From contig JANXYO010000118.1 of the NCBI GenBank assembly GCA_025356015.1, positions 1 through 49,392 on the forward strand: a stretch of 49,392 nucleotides of DNA. The letters run 5' to 3'. The stretch comes from Spirochaetaceae bacterium (lineage in GTDB: Bacteria; Spirochaetota; Spirochaetia; Treponematales; Rectinemataceae). The notes beneath the pieces are model-generated. The model worked only from the letters and a program-made list of their open reading frames with translations, did not search any database and was not told the DNA's origin. Positions 38,353-46,409 of this stretch are shown one piece after another (positions within the stretch are counted from its first letter, which is position 1; the number at the start of each line of letters is the position of its first letter). The position numbers were made by a program, and so were the translations under genes.

Positions 38353-39072
38353 TTAGGCCCTGCCGAGCACAAGGCGGTACAGGCGGGATTCGGCTTCCAT
38401 GGTGGCAGCCGAGCCAAAGGCGCGTTCCTCGCGCGGGACGGTCACTGGAAAATCGGCCACGACGGCCGCAGGCCGCTTCGACAGGACGACCACCCGATCC
38501 CCGAGATACACGGCCTCTTCGACGTCATGGGTGACGAGCACGACAGTCCTTCTCTCCTCCTTCCAGAGCCCGATGAAGACATCCATGAGCTCGAGCTTGG
38601 TGGCGAGATCGACGGCCTGGAATGCCTCGTCGAGGAGGAGTATCTCTGAAGGAAAGGCGAAGGCCCTGGCAAGTGAGAGGCGTTGGCGCATTCCGCCCGA
38701 GAGCTCCGCGGGCTTCTTCATGGCGGCATCGGCGAGACCGGCGGAGGCCAGGAATCGGTCGACACGGATCAGGGCCTCGTCTCGGGGCAGGGCGCCCTCA
38801 AGCGCGAAGCATGCGTTCTCCCTCGCGCTGAGCCAGGGCAGGAGACGGGGTTCCTGGAAGGCATAGGAGAAGCGGACCCCCTCGAAGCCGAGCCTGTCTC
38901 CCGAGTCCGGCGGCTTGAGCCCTGCTATCAGATTGAGCAGTGTCGATTTTCCGCAGCCTGAAGGGCCAAGGACAACGCTTATCGACTCGGGGGAAAAACC
39001 GAGGGAGAGGCCATCGAGAACCTCCTCCCCGCCATAGGAGGCGCGGACCTCACGCAGCTCGTAGGCCATCAT
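38353..39072 (-). CDS. ABC transporter ATP-binding protein (NitT/TauT/SsuB type)
   Basis: 239 residues. Walker A LGPSGCGKST, Q-loop FQEPRLLPW, signature LSGGMRQRLSLARA, Walker B ILLLDEAF (DEPF in most), and H-loop VTHDVEEAVYLGDR. The LLPW/VEEAVYL pattern is typical of importers for nitrate, taurine, sulfonates or thiamine precursors. It is the last gene of a three-gene importer operon, overlapping the permease by 23 bases, with AGGGGA before the ATG. Convergent with the hybrid kinase 34 bases away; no clear terminator between them. Confidence 0.92.
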   Translation of the reverse strand: MMAYELREVRASYGGEEVLDGLSLGFSPESISVVLGPSGCGKSTLLNLIAGLKPPDSGDRLGFEGVRFSYAFQEPRLLPWLSARENACFALEGALPRDEALIRVDRFLASAGLADAAMKKPAELSGGMRQRLSLARAFAFPSEILLLDEAFQAVDLATKLELMDVFIGLWKEERRTVVLVTHDVEEAVYLGDRVVVLSKRPAAVVADFPVTVPREERAFGSAATMEAESRLYRLVLGRA

Positions 39073-39877
39073 GTCCCCTTCTCTTGATCAGCAGACCGAA
39101 AATCCACTCCGTGAGCCCGCACAGGAGAACCGAAGCCGCTGCCCAGGCAAAGACGCTGCCGGTCTCGAGCATGACCCTCGCGTCCTGCATCCCGGTGCCC
39201 AGGGCGCGCAGGGGCTGGCTCAGGACCTCACCCGCGACAACGACCTTCCAGGACAGACCAAGGGCGCTCCTCGCCCCTGCCATTAAATGGGGAGCGGCCG
39301 AGGGAAGCCTGAGCTTCCAGAACACGGCCCTAGGTGGAACCCTGAACAGCCTCGCCATCTCGAGCAGGCGTGGATCAGATGCCCTTGCCCCCTCGGATGC
39401 GCTCGAGACCATGACCGGAAAGGCCATGAGGAAGGCCGAGAAGATGGGCACAAAGCCCGAGGGGAACCAGATGAGGGCAAGGAGGATGAGGGCCAGGACC
39501 GGAGTCGCCCTGATCACGGTGAGAAGCGGGGCCAGGGCCGCGGCAGCGAGGGGCCATGCCCCGGCGACCAGGCCTAGACCCGTTCCCGCGAGGGCGGAAA
39601 GCCCGAAGGCCGCCATGCCCCGAAGGAAGGTCGCGACCAGTGCCTCGAGGAAATGCGTTGTCGGATAGAGGTCCACCGCGAGACCAAGGACACGTTCCGG
39701 TGAGGGGAGGACGATTTCCCTGCCTATCGCCTGGGCCGCGAGTTTCCAGATCAGGATGAGGAGGATGGCGCTCGCGGCGCCCGTCAGGACGTGGCTGCTG
39801 TTTCTGAGCCTGGTCCCTGACCCTCCTCTGGCCCCAGGCTCAGACCCTCTAATTGAGTGACGCGTAGAAGGTCCCAT
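39050..39877 (-). CDS. ABC transporter permease (NitT/TauT/SsuC type)
   Basis: 276 residues with about six membrane helices and the EAA-type loop ASDPRLLEMARLFRVPPRAVFWKLRLPSA, typical of binding-protein-dependent permeases. ATG 39877 is chosen because GGGGGAA lies eight to nine bases upstream; a longer in-frame start (39928) would overlap the binding-protein gene by 80 bases instead of 29. The first ~25 residues are polar and weakly conserved. Confidence 0.88.
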   Translation of the reverse strand: MGPSTRHSIRGSEPGARGGSGTRLRNSSHVLTGAASAILLILIWKLAAQAIGREIVLPSPERVLGLAVDLYPTTHFLEALVATFLRGMAAFGLSALAGTGLGLVAGAWPLAAAALAPLLTVIRATPVLALILLALIWFPSGFVPIFSAFLMAFPVMVSSASEGARASDPRLLEMARLFRVPPRAVFWKLRLPSAAPHLMAGARSALGLSWKVVVAGEVLSQPLRALGTGMQDARVMLETGSVFAWAAASVLLCGLTEWIFGLLIKRRGHDGLRAA

Positions 39878-40817
39878 CGGGCAATTTCCCCCCGATGGAG
39901 GCAGGGCTGGTCTCGAGGAAGACGCCAAGAAGGGCTTCGATACCTGGCCGCGCCTCGGGTGCTGGGAGATAGATGTAGTTGGTCCTCGGTATCGCCAGCT
40001 CTGCCATGGCCGCCTTCAGTCCTAGGTCATGTCTCTCGACAAGGAGGCCTGCCGCCTTCGGATTGGCCACCACCCAGGCGAGCGACGATTTGGCCGCTGC
40101 GAGGATTGCGGCAACCGCGGCCGGCCTTTCGCGGACGAGTCTCGAGCTCGTCACGAGGGCTGTCATGGGGTAGCTCTCCTGGCCCGTCGACTTGTTCCAG
40201 AGTCTGCCCAGGTCGAAGGGTGCCTTCAGCTTGGGGTTCGAGGCGAGGGCGAGGGTGGCAAAGGGCTCGGGAAGCACAGCGCAGCTGATCTTTCCGGAGG
40301 CAAGGGCGGCTGCGGCCTCTGGATAGGGCAGGGCGTAGGAAAGATGGAGGTCACGGTCGGGATCCAGCCCCGCGGCCTTGAGGAGGTGCCGGAGAAGAAA
40401 GTCGGGGGTCGCCCCCTGGCCGGCGACTGCGACCTCCTTGCCCCTCAGATCGGCCAGTCCTGCTATCGAGGGATCCGAGGTGAGGAAGGAAACCATGCCG
40501 TTGCCGATTATCGCGACGAGGCGTATGCCGATGCCGGCGCTGTAGAGTTTGGCGGCCATGTTGACAGGGAGGACTGCCACGTCATATTCCCCCGAGATCA
40601 CCTTGGCTGCCATCAGGTCGGCGCTGCCCACGGCCAAGGGCTGAAGGCTCAGGCCCTCGGGGAGGGTCGGCGGGCTTTCGAAAAGGCGGACGAGGCCGAT
40701 GCCCGAGGGACCCTTGAGGGCCCCAAGGACCAGGGTTCCTGTCTGCGCCGATGCGTTCACCGCCAGGACGGCGGTGGCGAGAAGGGCGATCAGCTTTGCG
40801 GTCGAATCGCGTTTCAT
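39849..40817 (-). CDS. ABC transporter substrate-binding protein (SsuA/THI5/NMT1-like)
   Basis: 322 residues with a cleavable signal peptide (KLIALLATAVLAVNASAQT), so periplasmic. The two-lobe fold is seen in VGSADLMAAKVISGEYDVAV, LADLRGKEVAVAGQGATPDF and ISCAVLPEPFATLAL. It delivers a small anion or thiamine-precursor-like ligand; the ligand cannot be told. First gene of the importer operon, with GGAGAGACC before the ATG. Its upstream region (40818-40899) is AT-rich and shared with the divergent mcsAB gene. Confidence 0.9.
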   Translation of the reverse strand: MKRDSTAKLIALLATAVLAVNASAQTGTLVLGALKGPSGIGLVRLFESPPTLPEGLSLQPLAVGSADLMAAKVISGEYDVAVLPVNMAAKLYSAGIGIRLVAIIGNGMVSFLTSDPSIAGLADLRGKEVAVAGQGATPDFLLRHLLKAAGLDPDRDLHLSYALPYPEAAAALASGKISCAVLPEPFATLALASNPKLKAPFDLGRLWNKSTGQESYPMTALVTSSRLVRERPAAVAAILAAAKSSLAWVVANPKAAGLLVERHDLGLKAAMAELAIPRTNYIYLPAPEARPGIEALLGVFLETSPASIGGKLPDGTFYASLN

Positions 40818-40886
40818 CCTTTGGTCTCTCCTTTTCCTTCGCGAGGGAATATATACGCAACGCTATACTTTTTCCATGCCTTGAAC

Positions 40887-40892
40887 TATAGT
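40887..40892 (+). promoter_or_regulatory. candidate -10 box for mcsAB-clpC
   Basis: TATAGT ends seven bases before GTG 40900. No good -35 is visible at the expected distance, and no CtsR- or CIRCE-type operator is seen. CTATA (40863-40867) and TATAG (40887-40891) form an inverted repeat across the shared divergent region. Confidence 0.4.
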
Positions 40893-40899
40893 CCTCTGC

Positions 40900-42411
40900 G
40901 TGACCTGCGCGCAGTGCGGCGAGCGGCCGGCCGCCATCTTCATACGGCGGAGGGTCTCTGGCTCGGGACCTCCAGGGGCGGCGCCCTTGTCCACCGATGG
41001 CAGCCCCGACCTCGCGTTGTGCGAAATCTGCGCCCGCTCGCGCGGCATCACGGCCGGAAAGGGCCGCCTCGACATCGGCATCGAGGAGCTCATGGGAGCG
41101 GCGTCGGCGGCGCAGGATGGCCACGAGCCCGGCATGCCAACGGCCTGCCCTTCCTGCGGCTCCACGCTCTCGATGCTCAGGCGCGAGGGCAGGCTCGGCT
41201 GCCCTTCCTGCCTCGATGCCTTCCACCCCTTTGTCGAGCGCATCCTTGGCAGCTCTCCCCGTGGCTTCTCCGAAGCGCTTGAACGCCCGAGCCGCCTGCT
41301 CTTCCCCTCGCACTCACGCGAGGCCTCGCCCTCGGCCTTCCCCTTTTTCGCCTCCGGCCGCGGCCCGGAAGACGACGTGGTCCTTTCCACCACGGTGCGC
41401 CTCTTCCGCAACATCTCAGGCCTGCCCTTCCCGGGCGGGGCCCGGGGACAGGTGGCGCCCTCCCGCGACATGGTGGCCTCGGCCCTGGACTTGATGCCCG
41501 GAATGAGGCGCTGGGACATGGCCGATCTGGACCATGCCATGCGCCGATCCCTGTCGGAGCGGGGCTTCATGCCCCGCTCATACGCCGCCGACCCCGAGTC
41601 CCTCCTCGCGGCAGGCTTTGATCTGCCGGCCTATCTTCTTGCGGACGAAGGCGACCATCTGCGTATCTGCGCCAGATATCCGGGCCTTGCCCCCGAGGCC
41701 GCGGCCGGCTGCGCCCAGGGCCTTGCGCAGGAGCTCGCCTCAGGGGGATTCCCATTCCTCAGCGACGCACGCGTCGGCTGGGTATGCTCCCGGCTGGAGG
41801 ACTGCGGTCCGGGCATGTCGGTTTCGGCCAGCCTCCACCTGCCTGCCCTCGCACTTACCGGCCTCCACGACCGCTTCCTCCGCAGTATCTTGAGAGAAGG
41901 CATAGTCGTGCGCGGCAGCTATGCCGAGGGTGAAAGCTCAGCGGGCTCGGTGTATGAGGCCGTCGTCACAGGCGCCGCGCGTCTCGACACCGCCGGCATG
42001 CTCTCGGAACTCCATGGCATCGCCTTGCAGGCGGCAGAAGCCGAACGCAGGGCCCGTCAGGAACTGGCGGCCAAGGCCAGGTCTGAGCTGCTGGACACCG
42101 TCGGACGGGCCTATGGCCTCGCCCTCCACGCCAGACGCCTTGCTCCCGGCGAGGGAGCCTCTCACGCCTCGACCCTGAGGCTCGCCGCCCTCCTCGGCCT
42201 GGTGGCGCAAGCTGGCGAAAATGAAGATGGGGCCCATTACCTGGGCCTCGCCGGCCGTCTGGGCAGGCTCCTGGATTGCATGGGGCCTGGAACTATCGCG
42301 GTGTTGTCGGGCCTAGCCGACCAGGAAAGCGGGCCCAAGGATGAGGAACTTCGGTCAAGAGCGCTCCGCTCGGCCCTGAAAGGCGCTATGTTAGTAGGGG
42401 GAGGAGATTGA
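40900..42411 (+). CDS. McsA-McsB fusion: double zinc finger plus guanido-kinase-like domain lacking catalytic residues
   Basis: 503 residues. Residues 1-115 match McsA: CAQCGERPA with CEIC (Cys 3, 6, 41, 44) and CPSC twice (83, 86, 101, 104), two CxxC-CxxC zinc sites. The McsA UVR motif is missing. Residues ~158-480 match McsB, the ATP:guanido phosphotransferase fold that marks proteins with phospho-arginine for ClpCP: VVLSTTVRLFRNISGLPFP, DEGDHLRICARYPG, RVGWVCS, SLHLPALALTGL, VVRGSYAEG. Against active McsB, several key residues are replaced: Thr165 for the ATP-binding Arg, Gly251 for the catalytic Glu of NEEDH, Arg298 for the Cys of CPTN, and Ser307 for an Arg. Glu343 is kept. A pseudokinase adaptor is likely. 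Start GTG 40900 has no ribosome binding site. Confidence 0.88.
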   Translation: MTCAQCGERPAAIFIRRRVSGSGPPGAAPLSTDGSPDLALCEICARSRGITAGKGRLDIGIEELMGAASAAQDGHEPGMPTACPSCGSTLSMLRREGRLGCPSCLDAFHPFVERILGSSPRGFSEALERPSRLLFPSHSREASPSAFPFFASGRGPEDDVVLSTTVRLFRNISGLPFPGGARGQVAPSRDMVASALDLMPGMRRWDMADLDHAMRRSLSERGFMPRSYAADPESLLAAGFDLPAYLLADEGDHLRICARYPGLAPEAAAGCAQGLAQELASGGFPFLSDARVGWVCSRLEDCGPGMSVSASLHLPALALTGLHDRFLRSILREGIVVRGSYAEGESSAGSVYEAVVTGAARLDTAGMLSELHGIALQAAEAERRARQELAAKARSELLDTVGRAYGLALHARRLAPGEGASHASTLRLAALLGLVAQAGENEDGAHYLGLAGRLGRLLDCMGPGTIAVLSGLADQESGPKDEELRSRALRSALKGAMLVGGGD

Positions 42412-44897
42412 TGTTCAAGGGATTGACCCACAGGGCCCAGCGTGTCCTCACGATCCTCGCGCAGGAAGAGGCCAAACGCACACGCGCCGAGCAGGTCCTG
42501 CCGGAACACATCCTCCTTGCGATCGTCAAGGAGGGAGATGGAGTCGGCTTCAAGGCGATGCGGAGCCTCAAGATAGATACCCTCGAACTGCGCGACGAGC
42601 TGGACCGCTCGATCGAGCACCGCCGATCGGGAATTGTCCTGGGCGACCTGCCCCTGTCAAGGAGGGCAAGGTCCCTCCTCGAGGGAGCCGCCGAGGAAGC
42701 GAATATGGCGGGCTCCGACTACATCGGGACCGAGCACTTCATCGTGGCCGCGGCCCGCGAACAGGGTGGTTCCTTCGAGCGATACCTCTCGAGGATCGGG
42801 GTCTTCTACGAGCAGTTGCGCGCCGCGGTCCGGCTTCTCCGCGACCCCTCGGCCAGCCCCGAGGAGAAGCGGGAGAAGACCCAGGCCAGCTCCCCCACAA
42901 AGCCAAATGCGGCGAGGACCCCCCTCCTCGATGAGTTCGCACGCGACCTTACGACCCTCGCCCGGGAGGCACGCCTCGACCCCGTGATCGGGCGCGAGCG
43001 CGAGATCGGCCGCGTCATCCGCATACTGTCGAGGCGGACGAAGAACAACCCCGTGCTGGTCGGGGAGCCCGGCGTCGGCAAGACAGCCATCGTGGAGGGC
43101 CTCGCCCAGCGATTCGCCCGTGGCGAGGCTCCCGACGACCTCACGCGCAAGCGCATCCTGGCCCTGGACCTCGCTGCTGTCGTCGCTGGCACCAAGTACC
43201 GCGGAGAGTTCGAGGAGAGGCTCAAGCGCATCATGAAGGAGATCAGCGCGGCCGGGAACATCATCCTGTTCATCGACGAGATACACACGGTGGTCGGGGC
43301 GGGAAGCGCCGAAGGGACGATCGACGCCTCGAACATGCTCAAGCCCGCACTCTCGCGCGGAGAGGTGCAATGCATCGGTGCGACTACCCTGGATGAATAC
43401 CGCAAGCGTTTCGAAAAGGATGCCGCCCTCGAGCGCCGTTTCCAGTCCGTCCTGGTCGACGAGCCAGGCGCGGCCGAGACCGTTGAGATACTCGAGGGAG
43501 TGAAGGCCCGCTATGAGGACTTCCACGGCGTCAGCTATACGCGCCGCGCCGTCGAGGCCTCGGTCGAATTGTCAAAGCGCTATGTCGCCGACCGCTTCCT
43601 GCCCGACAAGGCCATCGACCTCCTCGACGAGGCGGGCGCCCTCAAGAAGGTCGGCAACCCGGCCCGCCCCGCCGAACTGGCCGAGATCGAGGATGAGATC
43701 CGCAGATTGGTCGAGGAAAAGCTCGCCCTGGTCTCGACCCAGAACTACGAGCGGGCCGCCGAGGTCCGCGACCGTGTCAGGAGGCTCAAGGCAAGGCTCG
43801 AGTCGATCAAGACCGAGTGGGAAGGCACCGGAAGGAAGGACCGCTACCCGGTGACCGAGGACGAGGTGCGCGCTGTGCTCGCCGAGGCCACAGGCATACC
43901 CCTGGAGAAGCTCGCCGAGAGCGACTCCGAACGCCTACTCCTCCTCGAGGATGAGCTCCATCGGAGGGTCGTCGGCCAGGACCAGGCCATCCAGACTGTC
44001 GCCTCGGCCATCAGGCGTTCGCGCGCAGGTGTCTCCGACGGGCGCAGGCCCATGGGGTCCTTCATCTTCCTCGGGCCCACAGGCGTCGGCAAGACCCTGG
44101 TCGCGAAGAGCCTCGCCGAATACCTTTTCGGCTCTGAGGATGCCCTGCTCCGGATCGACATGTCCGACTTCATGGAGCGCCACAACGCATCGAGGCTCGT
44201 CGGATCTCCTCCGGGTTACGTCGGCTACGACGAGGGCGGGATGCTCACCGAGCGGGTGAGGAGGAGGCCCTATAGCGTCGTGCTCTTCGATGAGATAGAG
44301 AAGGCCCATCCCGAGGTCTTCAACCTCCTCCTCCAGCTCCTCGAGGAAGGCGAGCTTCGGGACAACCTCGGCCACACCGTGTCCTTCAGGAGCAGTGTCA
44401 TCATCATGACGAGCAACGCCGGTGCCCGCGAGATTTCCGCGAGCGGGCTTGGCTTCAGAGCCTCTGACCGCCTTCTTTCCTACGCCGAGATCAAGAGTTC
44501 GGCTCTGGCCGAGCTCAAGCGCAGGTTCAATCCCGAGTTCGTGAACCGGGTCGATGGCATCGTCGTGTTCAAGCCCCTGGACCGGGGAGAGGCGAGGACG
44601 GTCCTAGATTTCCTCATCGCCGAATTGGCCAAGCGCCTTGGCGAGCGCGGGGTCGCGCTACAGATCAGGGACTCGGCCAAGGAGATACTTGTCGACCGTG
44701 GCTACGATCCTACCTATGGAGCCAGACCCATGCGCCGCCTGCTCCAGTCCGAGGTCGAGGACCGCCTTGCCGGAGCGATACTGGCAGGCAAGCTCACACC
44801 GGGCTCGGTCGCCCGCTTCGACGCCGTGGGAAGCGAGATACGAGTAAAGGTAAGCAAGGCTGGCCATAGACAGCCAAAGAAGCCCATCGCCCGCTAG
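42411..44897 (+). CDS. clpC: ATP-dependent Clp protease ATPase subunit ClpC
   Basis: 828 residues. Two Clp-N repeats ([40 protein letters not shown]), first AAA+ module with Walker A GEPGVGKT and [16 protein letters not shown], a middle UVR motif ([20 protein letters not shown]) that marks ClpC rather than ClpA or ClpB, and a second module with GPTGVGKT and SNAGAREI. It unfolds proteins for ClpP. ATG 42411 overlaps the mcsAB stop by one base, and GGGGAGGAG lies just upstream, so TTG 42408 is not the start. Cotranscription with mcsAB supports a shared role. Confidence 0.96.
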
Positions 44898-44915
44898 GCC
44901 CTCGCCTGGCCCCGC

Positions 44916-46409
44916 CTAGGCCTCGCCGATAAGGTCCCGCAGAGCGCGGAGCCGCCCCTCGTCAAGCTTGATCGCCAGGTTCTTCTCCTGCATCGGGATG
45001 ACGAGGCCCTTCGGGCCATCCTTCGCGCGGCGAAGATATTTCACGAAGGTATAGTAGACATCCCCGTCGCCCCCCGACCGCCCCTTCGAGTAGTAGAGGG
45101 CGAGATTGCCTGCGTCAAGCAGGATGTCGAGAGGAACGGTCTTGCCTGGCCTCGACTTGACGAAGACATAGGAGCCCGGCCAGTCCCTGGCGTGGAGCCA
45201 GAGATCCGAGCCGCGCACATGGCGCCTGAGGAGCTCGTCGTTTTCCTTGGCCGAGCGGCCCACGAGGATGGTCCAGCCATCGCGCTCAAGCGAAAGCCCG
45301 GGGTAGGTCCTCTTGGTGACCGATCTGGCGGCTCCACCCTTTGCGAGGGCCCGCGCGAGGAGGAAGGGATCGCTCTGCCCCTCAAGGGCCGAGAAATCAC
45401 GCGCCAGGGAGCCCTGTTCCTCGATGGCCGACTTGAGTTCGGCTTCGACATCGGCGAGGCCCGAGCGCGCCTTGCGGTGTTTCTCGTAGAAGGCTTTGGC
45501 GTTGTCGATCATCGAGAGCCTCGGCTCGACCGGAATGCTCACCTCTCCCCCGGCGTAGAAGTCCTCGAGGACAATGAAGCTGTCGCTGGTCTTCACCAGT
45601 GGATTGGCCATGAGTATGTCGCCGAGTTCCTTCCATCGCTCGGCGGCCCTGAACTCCTCGGCCCTTGCGCTCAGCTCGGCGATCCTGAGTTCGAGGGCGC
45701 GGCGCTTCTTGTCGAAGCGTTCCCTGGCCGTGGCGAGCAGTTTTTCCCGGGATAGTTCCCCGCCCTGGGCCGAGTAATGGGCCTCGAGGCGGGCATTGAA
45801 GCTTCCCTCTCCGGGCAGCTCCCTCGCCGAGAATTCCCGGCCTGTAGGGCGCTTGCCCTCGCTCGCTAGGCTCTCCTCGATCACGCAGCGCGCCCCCGAG
45901 ACCTCGGCGCGACGAGGCCTGCGGGCGAGGGCGTCGACGACGAGGCCATCCTCATCGACAAGGACCAGGTTGCCTGCGCCGCTCCAGAGCCTTGCGTAGA
46001 GCCTGTAGTGGCGGAGTCCCGGCGGATCGGCAGGTGGAGCCGTGGCATCCTCGGCTTGCTCGCCCGCCGTTTCGGCCTCGGCTCCATCATCGCGGAAGAC
46101 AGAGATGTCGAAGCGGACAATCCTCTCATCGCCGAGTTGGCTCACGGATTCGATCCTGCCGCCCCTGATCCTTGAGCGCAGGCATTCCATGAAACGAAGC
46201 GGTTGGAGGGGCTTTGGTGGCGGCTTGGACAGGGAATGGAGCCTGCAGGCCCCCTGGGCGATTGAAATCAGCAGCTCGATGTTCCGCCCGTGTTTGTAGA
46301 GCCCGAGGGAGACGGCATCGAAGGAGGGTTGTATGATCCTCTCGATCTTCGCCCCGGAGAGGTCCAGCTCCCCGAGGACGAGGTCTATCTCCTTCCAGTT
46401 GAGGGACAT
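44916..46409 (-). CDS. NFACT/RqcH-family protein (fibronectin-binding-like)
   Basis: 497 residues. The N-terminal NFACT-N region includes RIRGGRIESVSQLGDERIVRF, where the Asp-Arg pair essential in RqcH reads Glu-Arg. A coiled-coil middle (about 240-370) leads to the NFACT-R domain: LVGRSAKENDELLRRHVRGSDLWLHARDWPGSYVFVKS, matching the DxWLH block. RqcH proteins bind split 50S subunits and add alanine tails to stalled chains. At ~500 residues it is shorter than the usual ~560-570. AAGGAAG precedes ATG 46409. It follows secA by 60 bases and is likely cotranscribed. RqcH activity is inferred; the family was first named for adhesins. Confidence 0.85.
   Translation of the reverse strand: MSLNWKEIDLVLGELDLSGAKIERIIQPSFDAVSLGLYKHGRNIELLISIAQGACRLHSLSKPPPKPLQPLRFMECLRSRIRGGRIESVSQLGDERIVRFDISVFRDDGAEAETAGEQAEDATAPPADPPGLRHYRLYARLWSGAGNLVLVDEDGLVVDALARRPRRAEVSGARCVIEESLASEGKRPTGREFSARELPGEGSFNARLEAHYSAQGGELSREKLLATARERFDKKRRALELRIAELSARAEEFRAAERWKELGDILMANPLVKTSDSFIVLEDFYAGGEVSIPVEPRLSMIDNAKAFYEKHRKARSGLADVEAELKSAIEEQGSLARDFSALEGQSDPFLLARALAKGGAARSVTKRTYPGLSLERDGWTILVGRSAKENDELLRRHVRGSDLWLHARDWPGSYVFVKSRPGKTVPLDILLDAGNLALYYSKGRSGGDGDVYYTFVKYLRRAKDGPKGLVIPMQEKNLAIKLDEGRLRALRDLIGEA

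Follow-up and report, generated by a model that had tools for sequence, protein, structure and literature searches.

The closest described relatives of the locus reported here are the McsB and McsA proteins of Geobacillus, Bacillus subtilis and Staphylococcus aureus. In the parts of the published accounts that we consulted, the McsA-McsB tetramer of S. aureus is stabilised mainly by R262-E277, and McsA, with the zinc-finger cysteines Cys87/90/105/108, docks a zinc finger on McsB loop 147-153, thereby placing Cys157 (PMC12467219). Likewise, the phospho-arginine receptor of B. subtilis McsB is described as R337-D338 (PMC8370763), and the kinase-dead variant C167S as retaining part of the work of McsB on MgsR (PMC7235348).

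We analysed a stretch of 49,392 nucleotides, hereafter the window, from a Spirochaetaceae bacterium of the family Rectinemataceae, order Treponematales (contig JANXYO010000118.1). The initial annotation had proposed that McsA zinc fingers and an McsB domain form one protein here, with a stop codon overlapping the start of clpC. Open reading frame and profiles bear this out: an uninterrupted frame with a GTG start encodes 503 residues, and its TGA (42409-42411) overlaps the clpC ATG at 42411 by one base (Table 1). The genes mcsA, mcsB and clpC are thus consecutive, the first two being fused, and translation of the fusion is putatively positioned for coupling to that of ClpC. In a mechanical list of open reading frames, clpC instead begins with a TTG located three bases before this ATG. 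The McsA model NF053706 matches residues 1-116 (E 6.3e-7) and the McsB model NF053707 residues 150-438 (E 8.1e-33), at scores of 29.4 and 114.1 bits that fall below the equivalog cut-offs of 210 and 500; the ATP:guanido phosphotransferase superfamily model PF00217 matches at E 5e-14 and 52.6 bits, above its curated cut-off of 22.4. As in McsA, two CxxC-CxxC zinc fingers follow each other in the same order; unlike McsA, the protein is joined to McsB and has no UVR motif detectable by pattern, the sole UVR profile match of the contig lying in clpC. By eye, we noticed an LGF tripeptide in the ClpC translation, which resembles the ClpP-binding loop motif; the genome holds two ClpP-family matches. 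A promoter scan of 40600-45100 gave no plus-strand site. Divergent from the fusion gene, the genes at positions 39050-40817 (minus strand) look by eye like those for a substrate-binding protein and for the permease of an ABC transporter.

Table 1. Features of the McsA-McsB fusion gene and of clpC, in window positions
Feature	Position	Strand	Basis
McsA-McsB fusion gene	40900..42411	+	ORF, profiles, phmmer, model pLDDT 85
McsA zinc finger 1 (C3xxC6 ... C41xxC44)	40906..41031	+	sequence, McsA model, counterparts in relatives
McsA zinc finger 2 (C83xxC86 ... C101xxC104)	41146..41211	+	sequence; S. aureus counterpart docks on McsB (PMC12467219, part consulted)
Linker, residues 117-153, largely low model confidence	41248..41358	+	relatives' comparison, model
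McsB phosphotransferase (kinase-fold) domain, about residues 154-353	41359..41958	+	profiles, phmmer, superposition
Thr165 at McsB Arg28 position	41392..41394	+	alignment
Gly251 at catalytic Glu121 position	41650..41652	+	alignment
Arg298 at catalytic Cys167 position	41791..41793	+	alignment
Ser307 at McsB Arg176 position	41818..41820	+	alignment
Arg338 to Glu343 (McsB R207, E212), retained in fusion	41911..41928	+	alignment
McsB dimerisation (C-terminal) domain, about residues 362-503	41983..42408	+	model, superposition
Arg403 and Glu418, aligned with R262-E277, the interface salt bridge in S. aureus	42106..42153	+	alignment
Asp481-Glu482, place of B. subtilis phospho-arginine receptor R337-D338	42340..42345	+	alignment
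clpC: Hsp100 unfoldase, N domain, two AAA modules, UVR motif	42411..44897	+	ORF, profiles

By sequence (phmmer), the nearest solved chain is Geobacillus McsB 6fh1 (E 1.5e-27), whose residue numbers are given here as chain index minus 4, anchored on C167. The superposition on Geobacillus McsB suggested by the initial annotation agrees: residues 144-497 of an AlphaFold2 model (mean pLDDT 85) superpose on residues 4-354 of 6fh3 with Z 37.3 and 2.5 A over 338 residues, in the same register, and Foldseek pairs the model with 6fh1 at E 1.6e-23. The whole fold, over both domains, is shared between the predicted model and solved McsB from Geobacillus (6fh1/6fh3), B. subtilis (6tv6) and S. aureus (8gqd), with 338-342 residues at Z 37.

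Alignment to 6fh1 also upheld each of the four changes at catalytic or ATP-binding positions that the initial annotation had listed (Thr165, Gly251, Arg298 and Ser307), together with its retained Glu343. The residues replaced, R28, E121, C167 and R176, are those we take to be equivalent to R124, E225, C271 and R280 of arginine kinase. In that enzyme R124, R126, R229 and R280 form a positive cluster guiding the nucleotide, according to the part of PMC12467219 consulted; the same source has an McsA zinc finger place the catalytic Cys in S. aureus, a residue missing in the fusion. Retained are McsB R30, R125, R207 and E212 (R167, R255, R338 and E343 of the fusion), so the protein may still bind nucleotide, which counts against the reading that we favour below. 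The fusion is homologous to McsB and McsA, but it fails the defining catalytic features of McsB, with the catalytic Glu and Cys and the arginines at positions 28 and 176 replaced, and we infer from these residues that it lacks kinase activity. It also counts against that reading that pseudokinases called by sequence sometimes turn out to be active.

Among 58 closely placed genomes, that of the window being one of them, 30 had a match, and a profile search of 392 phylum genomes matched in 232. From these we read 115 McsB sequences, one per genome, which represent best-scoring loci and hand-picked families rather than a random sample; 48 belong to the order of the window (families f1-f5) and 67 to other spirochaetes. 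The catalytic Cys (C167) occurs in none of the 48 order sequences, R176 in 2, E121 in 13, R207 in 7 and E212 in just 6, and R28 is Arg in 34 of 47. Each order sequence keeps between 0 and 5 of the eight catalytic residues, most often 3. The expectation that the same substitutions would recur in homologues therefore failed for the exact residues, given the frequent Arg at R28 and occasional Glu at E121, and stood for the site as a whole, which is restored in none.

Outside the order, 20 of 67 rows are intact by a rule that demands E121, C167, R28, R30, R125 and R or K at 176 and leaves R207 and E212 free; 8 of these 20 keep all eight residues. They come from families f28, f33, f39, f42, f47, f50, f55 and f57, and f39, f50, f55 and f57 contain degenerate rows as well. 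Cys is found in none of the 95 degenerate rows. The catalytic columns were removed before a tree was computed from 21 intact rows (three of them PDB references) and 91 degenerate ones; on it, with L012, L016, L101, L104, L107 and L110 omitted, at least 7 changes between the intact and degenerate states are needed, of which 3 are forced by well-supported branches; the intact f50 rows lie within the degenerate part of the tree, and their placement is unsure owing to long branches. Given the intact rows elsewhere in the phylum, the site was probably lost, and more than once.

A first scan of genome contigs with the window protein as query found no relative. A second scan, with patterns that contained NEEDH or LTxC[PT][ST]N and thus favoured intact sites, gave 80 loci that tell what is common and not what is absent: 18 from Bacillota, 33 from Planctomycetota, 9 from Omnitrophota, 7 from Verrucomicrobiota, 4 from Gemmatimonadota, 3 from Eiseniibacteriota, 1 each from Zixiibacteriota and Spirochaetota, and 4 without a phylum assignment. 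Every one of the 80 has R28, R30, E121, R125, C167, R176 and R207, and position 212 is Glu in 79 and Asp in 1. The Gram-positive setting in which McsB had been placed by the initial annotation hence needs widening, as intact McsB also occurs in Planctomycetota, Omnitrophota, Verrucomicrobiota and Gemmatimonadota; the several non-Bacillota phyla among these loci (L134-L213) are represented mostly by Planctomycetota and Omnitrophota. One of them, L134 ('Spirochaetes bacterium'), is the best match to a query from the phylum of the window (L066, 51% identity). With all 80 of these outside sequences intact, as are the 20 of 67 other spirochaete rows, the ancestral active site was probably intact too.

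Within the order, we saw the full fusion in the family of the window only (the window itself, L003-L007, L010 and L022). In other members of the order, mcsA and mcsB occupy separate frames; L127 (f4) is an exception, as its finger 2 shares a frame with McsB and its finger 1 does not. The two halves are separated by a UVR-like motif in the fused L004, L005, L006 and L010, whereas the search for one in the window protein, L003, L007 and L022 was negative. Fused genes beyond the order occur in one f9 genome (L100) and in f50, where the active site is intact in most cases. In the f50 fusions (L103, L105-L110), McsA fingers are in frame with the McsB kinase domain (6/7 rows by profile) and clpC is adjacent in 6/7, as in the window; unlike the window protein, they have an intact active site and apparently no dimerisation domain, the six frames read by eye ending soon past the kinase domain. 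A further f50 locus, L101, is without the catalytic Cys. Fused or not, McsA lies beside or in the gene in 92/95 degenerate and 19/20 intact rows.

The contacts that hold McsA and McsB together seem to have fared better than the active site. In the order, the place of R262 of the S. aureus salt bridge holds R or K in 48/48 sequences and that of E277 E or D in 47/48, and glycine 152 of the McsA-contact loop is kept in 47/48; the stacking pair F261-R271 is less conserved (F in 5/48, R in 24/48). The Arg of the phospho-arginine receptor is found in 0/47 readable order rows, 0/13 readable kinase-intact spirochaete rows and 1/44 other readable rows (L075), and, judged by a short motif, in 70/80 loci of the second contig scan; the fusion itself carries D481-E482. 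Since the receptor Arg is missing, we reject phospho-arginine binding through this known receptor, and that part of the initial annotation is unlikely. As far as residues can tell, then, the McsA-McsB body is kept in the order, and the writing site and the known receptor are not.

Other partners of the Bacillota system were sought. As the initial annotation had noted, ctsR is absent: CtsR (PF05848) has no match in the genome of the window or in any of the 58 genomes, in searches whose controls matched in Lactococcus lactis only for CtsR and in 0/14 genomes for PF00217. B. subtilis, one of the control genomes, has both a PF00217 gene and ctsR and was silent all the same, so that little can be read into silence in a control. 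We rejected the presence of another McsB in the genome of the window, there being a single PF00217 match. The YwlE phosphatase has no convincing candidate in the genome; the sole PF01451 match was rejected as YwlE, as it covers 111 bases only. That match lies in a 104-residue frame (L133:1423-1737) with a partial low-molecular-weight phosphatase/ArsC-like motif, flanked, by eye, by pst ABC transporter-like and PhoU-like genes. Set against described McsB, the fusion shares the interface salt bridge, with McsA ahead and clpC behind, and differs in lacking the four catalytic or ATP-binding residues and the receptor Arg, in being joined to McsA and in having no CtsR match.

The tie to clpC extends to the relatives. 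With adjacency defined as clpC at -60 to +400 bases, which left 4/115 rows with too little flank, clpC directly follows the McsB gene in 45/45 testable order loci, in 37/46 other degenerate rows and in 19/20 intact rows; beyond the order, 9 of the 46 degenerate rows that could be tested have no adjacent clpC, which counts against our preferred reading. These nine are L081, L084, L086 and L087 (f30), L097 and L099 (f53), L102 (f48), and L075 and L122 (f58); the single intact row without adjacent clpC lies in f50.

Co-occurrence, scored by hand from homology searches in the 58 genomes, gives 30 with McsB and ClpC, none with McsB alone, 7 with ClpC alone (G009, G033, G036, G039, G041, G044 and G049, without any McsB-like match) and 21 with neither. 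The corresponding figures for the 30 genomes from the family of the window are 9, 0, 1 and 20. Fisher p-values of 3.5e-10 and 7.0e-7 ignore shared descent, and the co-occurrence is in part a reflection of phylogeny. In this scoring G003 was placed among the genomes with neither, since it has a 46-residue McsA fragment at a contig end and nothing that matches ClpC; G052, whose matches are 39% over the full length and 56% over a part, was taken to have no ClpC, and G057 to have McsB by profile search alone. A profile search at E 0.01 of the 28 genomes scored without McsB, a set that includes no known-matching genome, matched in 0/28; the related profile A1 matched 30/30 genomes. In the family of the window, the best ClpC matches of 19 relatives without an McsB match (G004, G005, G007, G010-G013, G015, G019-G029) are ClpB-like only.

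Pairs of degenerate coding sequences from sister families have dN/dS of 0.04-0.24 where dS is finite, many dS values exceeding 1 or being infinite and no pair coming from the family of the window, where none passed 55% identity. By this measure, these pairs are under purifying selection. The ClpC glutamates E32 and E106, which we take to dock phospho-arginine, are kept in 75 and 74 of 77 degenerate and in 17 and 19 of 19 intact lineages; ClpC thus shows no sign of having dropped phospho-arginine, a point against the reading that we favour. In the ClpC N domain, many degenerate lineages have LLPEH and TEHxxxAA/AC and many intact ones xGPEH and TEHLLLAI/AL, a difference of which phylogeny may be the cause.

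We consider it likely that the gene encodes a pseudokinase McsB fused to McsA, an oligomeric, zinc-finger-controlled scaffold or adaptor of ClpC that would write no phospho-arginine. Made alongside ClpC, perhaps by coupled translation, the fusion would oligomerise through its retained interface, bind ClpC under the control of its zinc fingers and either bring clients to ClpC or hold it in check; we infer both the binding and the direction of its effect. The C167S variant of B. subtilis McsB, with its residual work on MgsR, is a precedent (PMC7235348). The loss of the same site in relatives from the order while the gene adjoins clpC suggests a job that does not need kinase activity. Of the non-catalytic, ClpC-linked adaptor put forward by the initial annotation, site loss in relatives and the clpC tie speak for the first two terms, and adaptor function is what synteny, co-occurrence and conservation would suggest. 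MecA and other ClpC adaptors of Bacillota are non-kinase adaptors of unrelated fold, with which the fusion would have this proposed role in common. Against our reading, the action of McsB on ClpC in B. subtilis is reported to need kinase activity in the consulted part of a review (PMC5506225).

The pocket might instead have been repurposed, for nucleotide or another ligand or for new catalysis, with Arg298 and a nearby acidic residue as its new motif. In the family of the window the Cys position is R or K in 7/9 sequences, with D or E three residues further along in 8/9, and the four residues retained in the fusion (R167, R255, R338 and E343) would also fit; over the order, however, the residues replacing Cys are of many kinds (S 13, D 9, R 8, N 5, E 4 and K 2 being the six commonest, n=48), which has the look of relaxed constraint and not of a shared new site, and we think this explanation unlikely. 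We give slightly less credence still to a protein that chiefly senses redox state or zinc and regulates genes, whose McsA fingers would sense thiol stress and whose McsB part would control a transcription factor other than CtsR. McsA oxidation frees McsB to act on CtsR in B. subtilis, as the same review states in the part consulted (PMC5506225), and the zinc-finger cysteines are kept, with at least four CxxC in 84/92 degenerate and 17/19 intact rows with McsA; but none of the 58 genomes has a CtsR match, the window contains no CIRCE-like site at up to 3 mismatches, and what usually lies next to the gene is clpC and no regulator.

Residual arginine kinase activity, slow or conditional, with the missing residues supplied by McsA or ClpC, would suit the docking glutamates kept in most ClpC rows. 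It is very improbable in the face of the loss of Glu, Cys and phosphate-binding arginines in varying combinations across the order, the lost receptor Arg and the lack of a convincing YwlE in the genome. That the gene is a pseudogene, an assembly error or a misalignment is suggested by its oddity and nothing more; with the frame open here and in fused relatives, dN/dS well below 1 in related pairs, and a superposition on McsB that reaches Z 37 without a shift of register, we reject this as extremely unlikely.

Beyond the pseudokinase scaffold proposed for the window, we offer a wider idea tentatively, and with more doubt than conviction: in Spirochaetota the McsB kinase would repeatedly have become nothing but a scaffold for ClpC, the lasting role of McsA-McsB would be kinase-independent, zinc-finger-gated control of ClpC, and arginine phosphorylation would be a dispensable layer; the R/K and D/E motif of the family may hold McsA or a client. 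Titles and abstract openings in a partial literature search gave no account of an inactive McsB or of a spirochaete McsB, so these proteins may form a branch of pseudokinases within the phosphagen-kinase fold that has yet to be described. In Bacillus, the kinase and adaptor roles of McsB on ClpC are described as hard to separate, in the portion of PMC5506225 consulted. By keeping McsA, McsB and clpC together as the site decayed, the order has in effect set the two roles apart by itself, and its proteins are ready-made material for telling them from each other.
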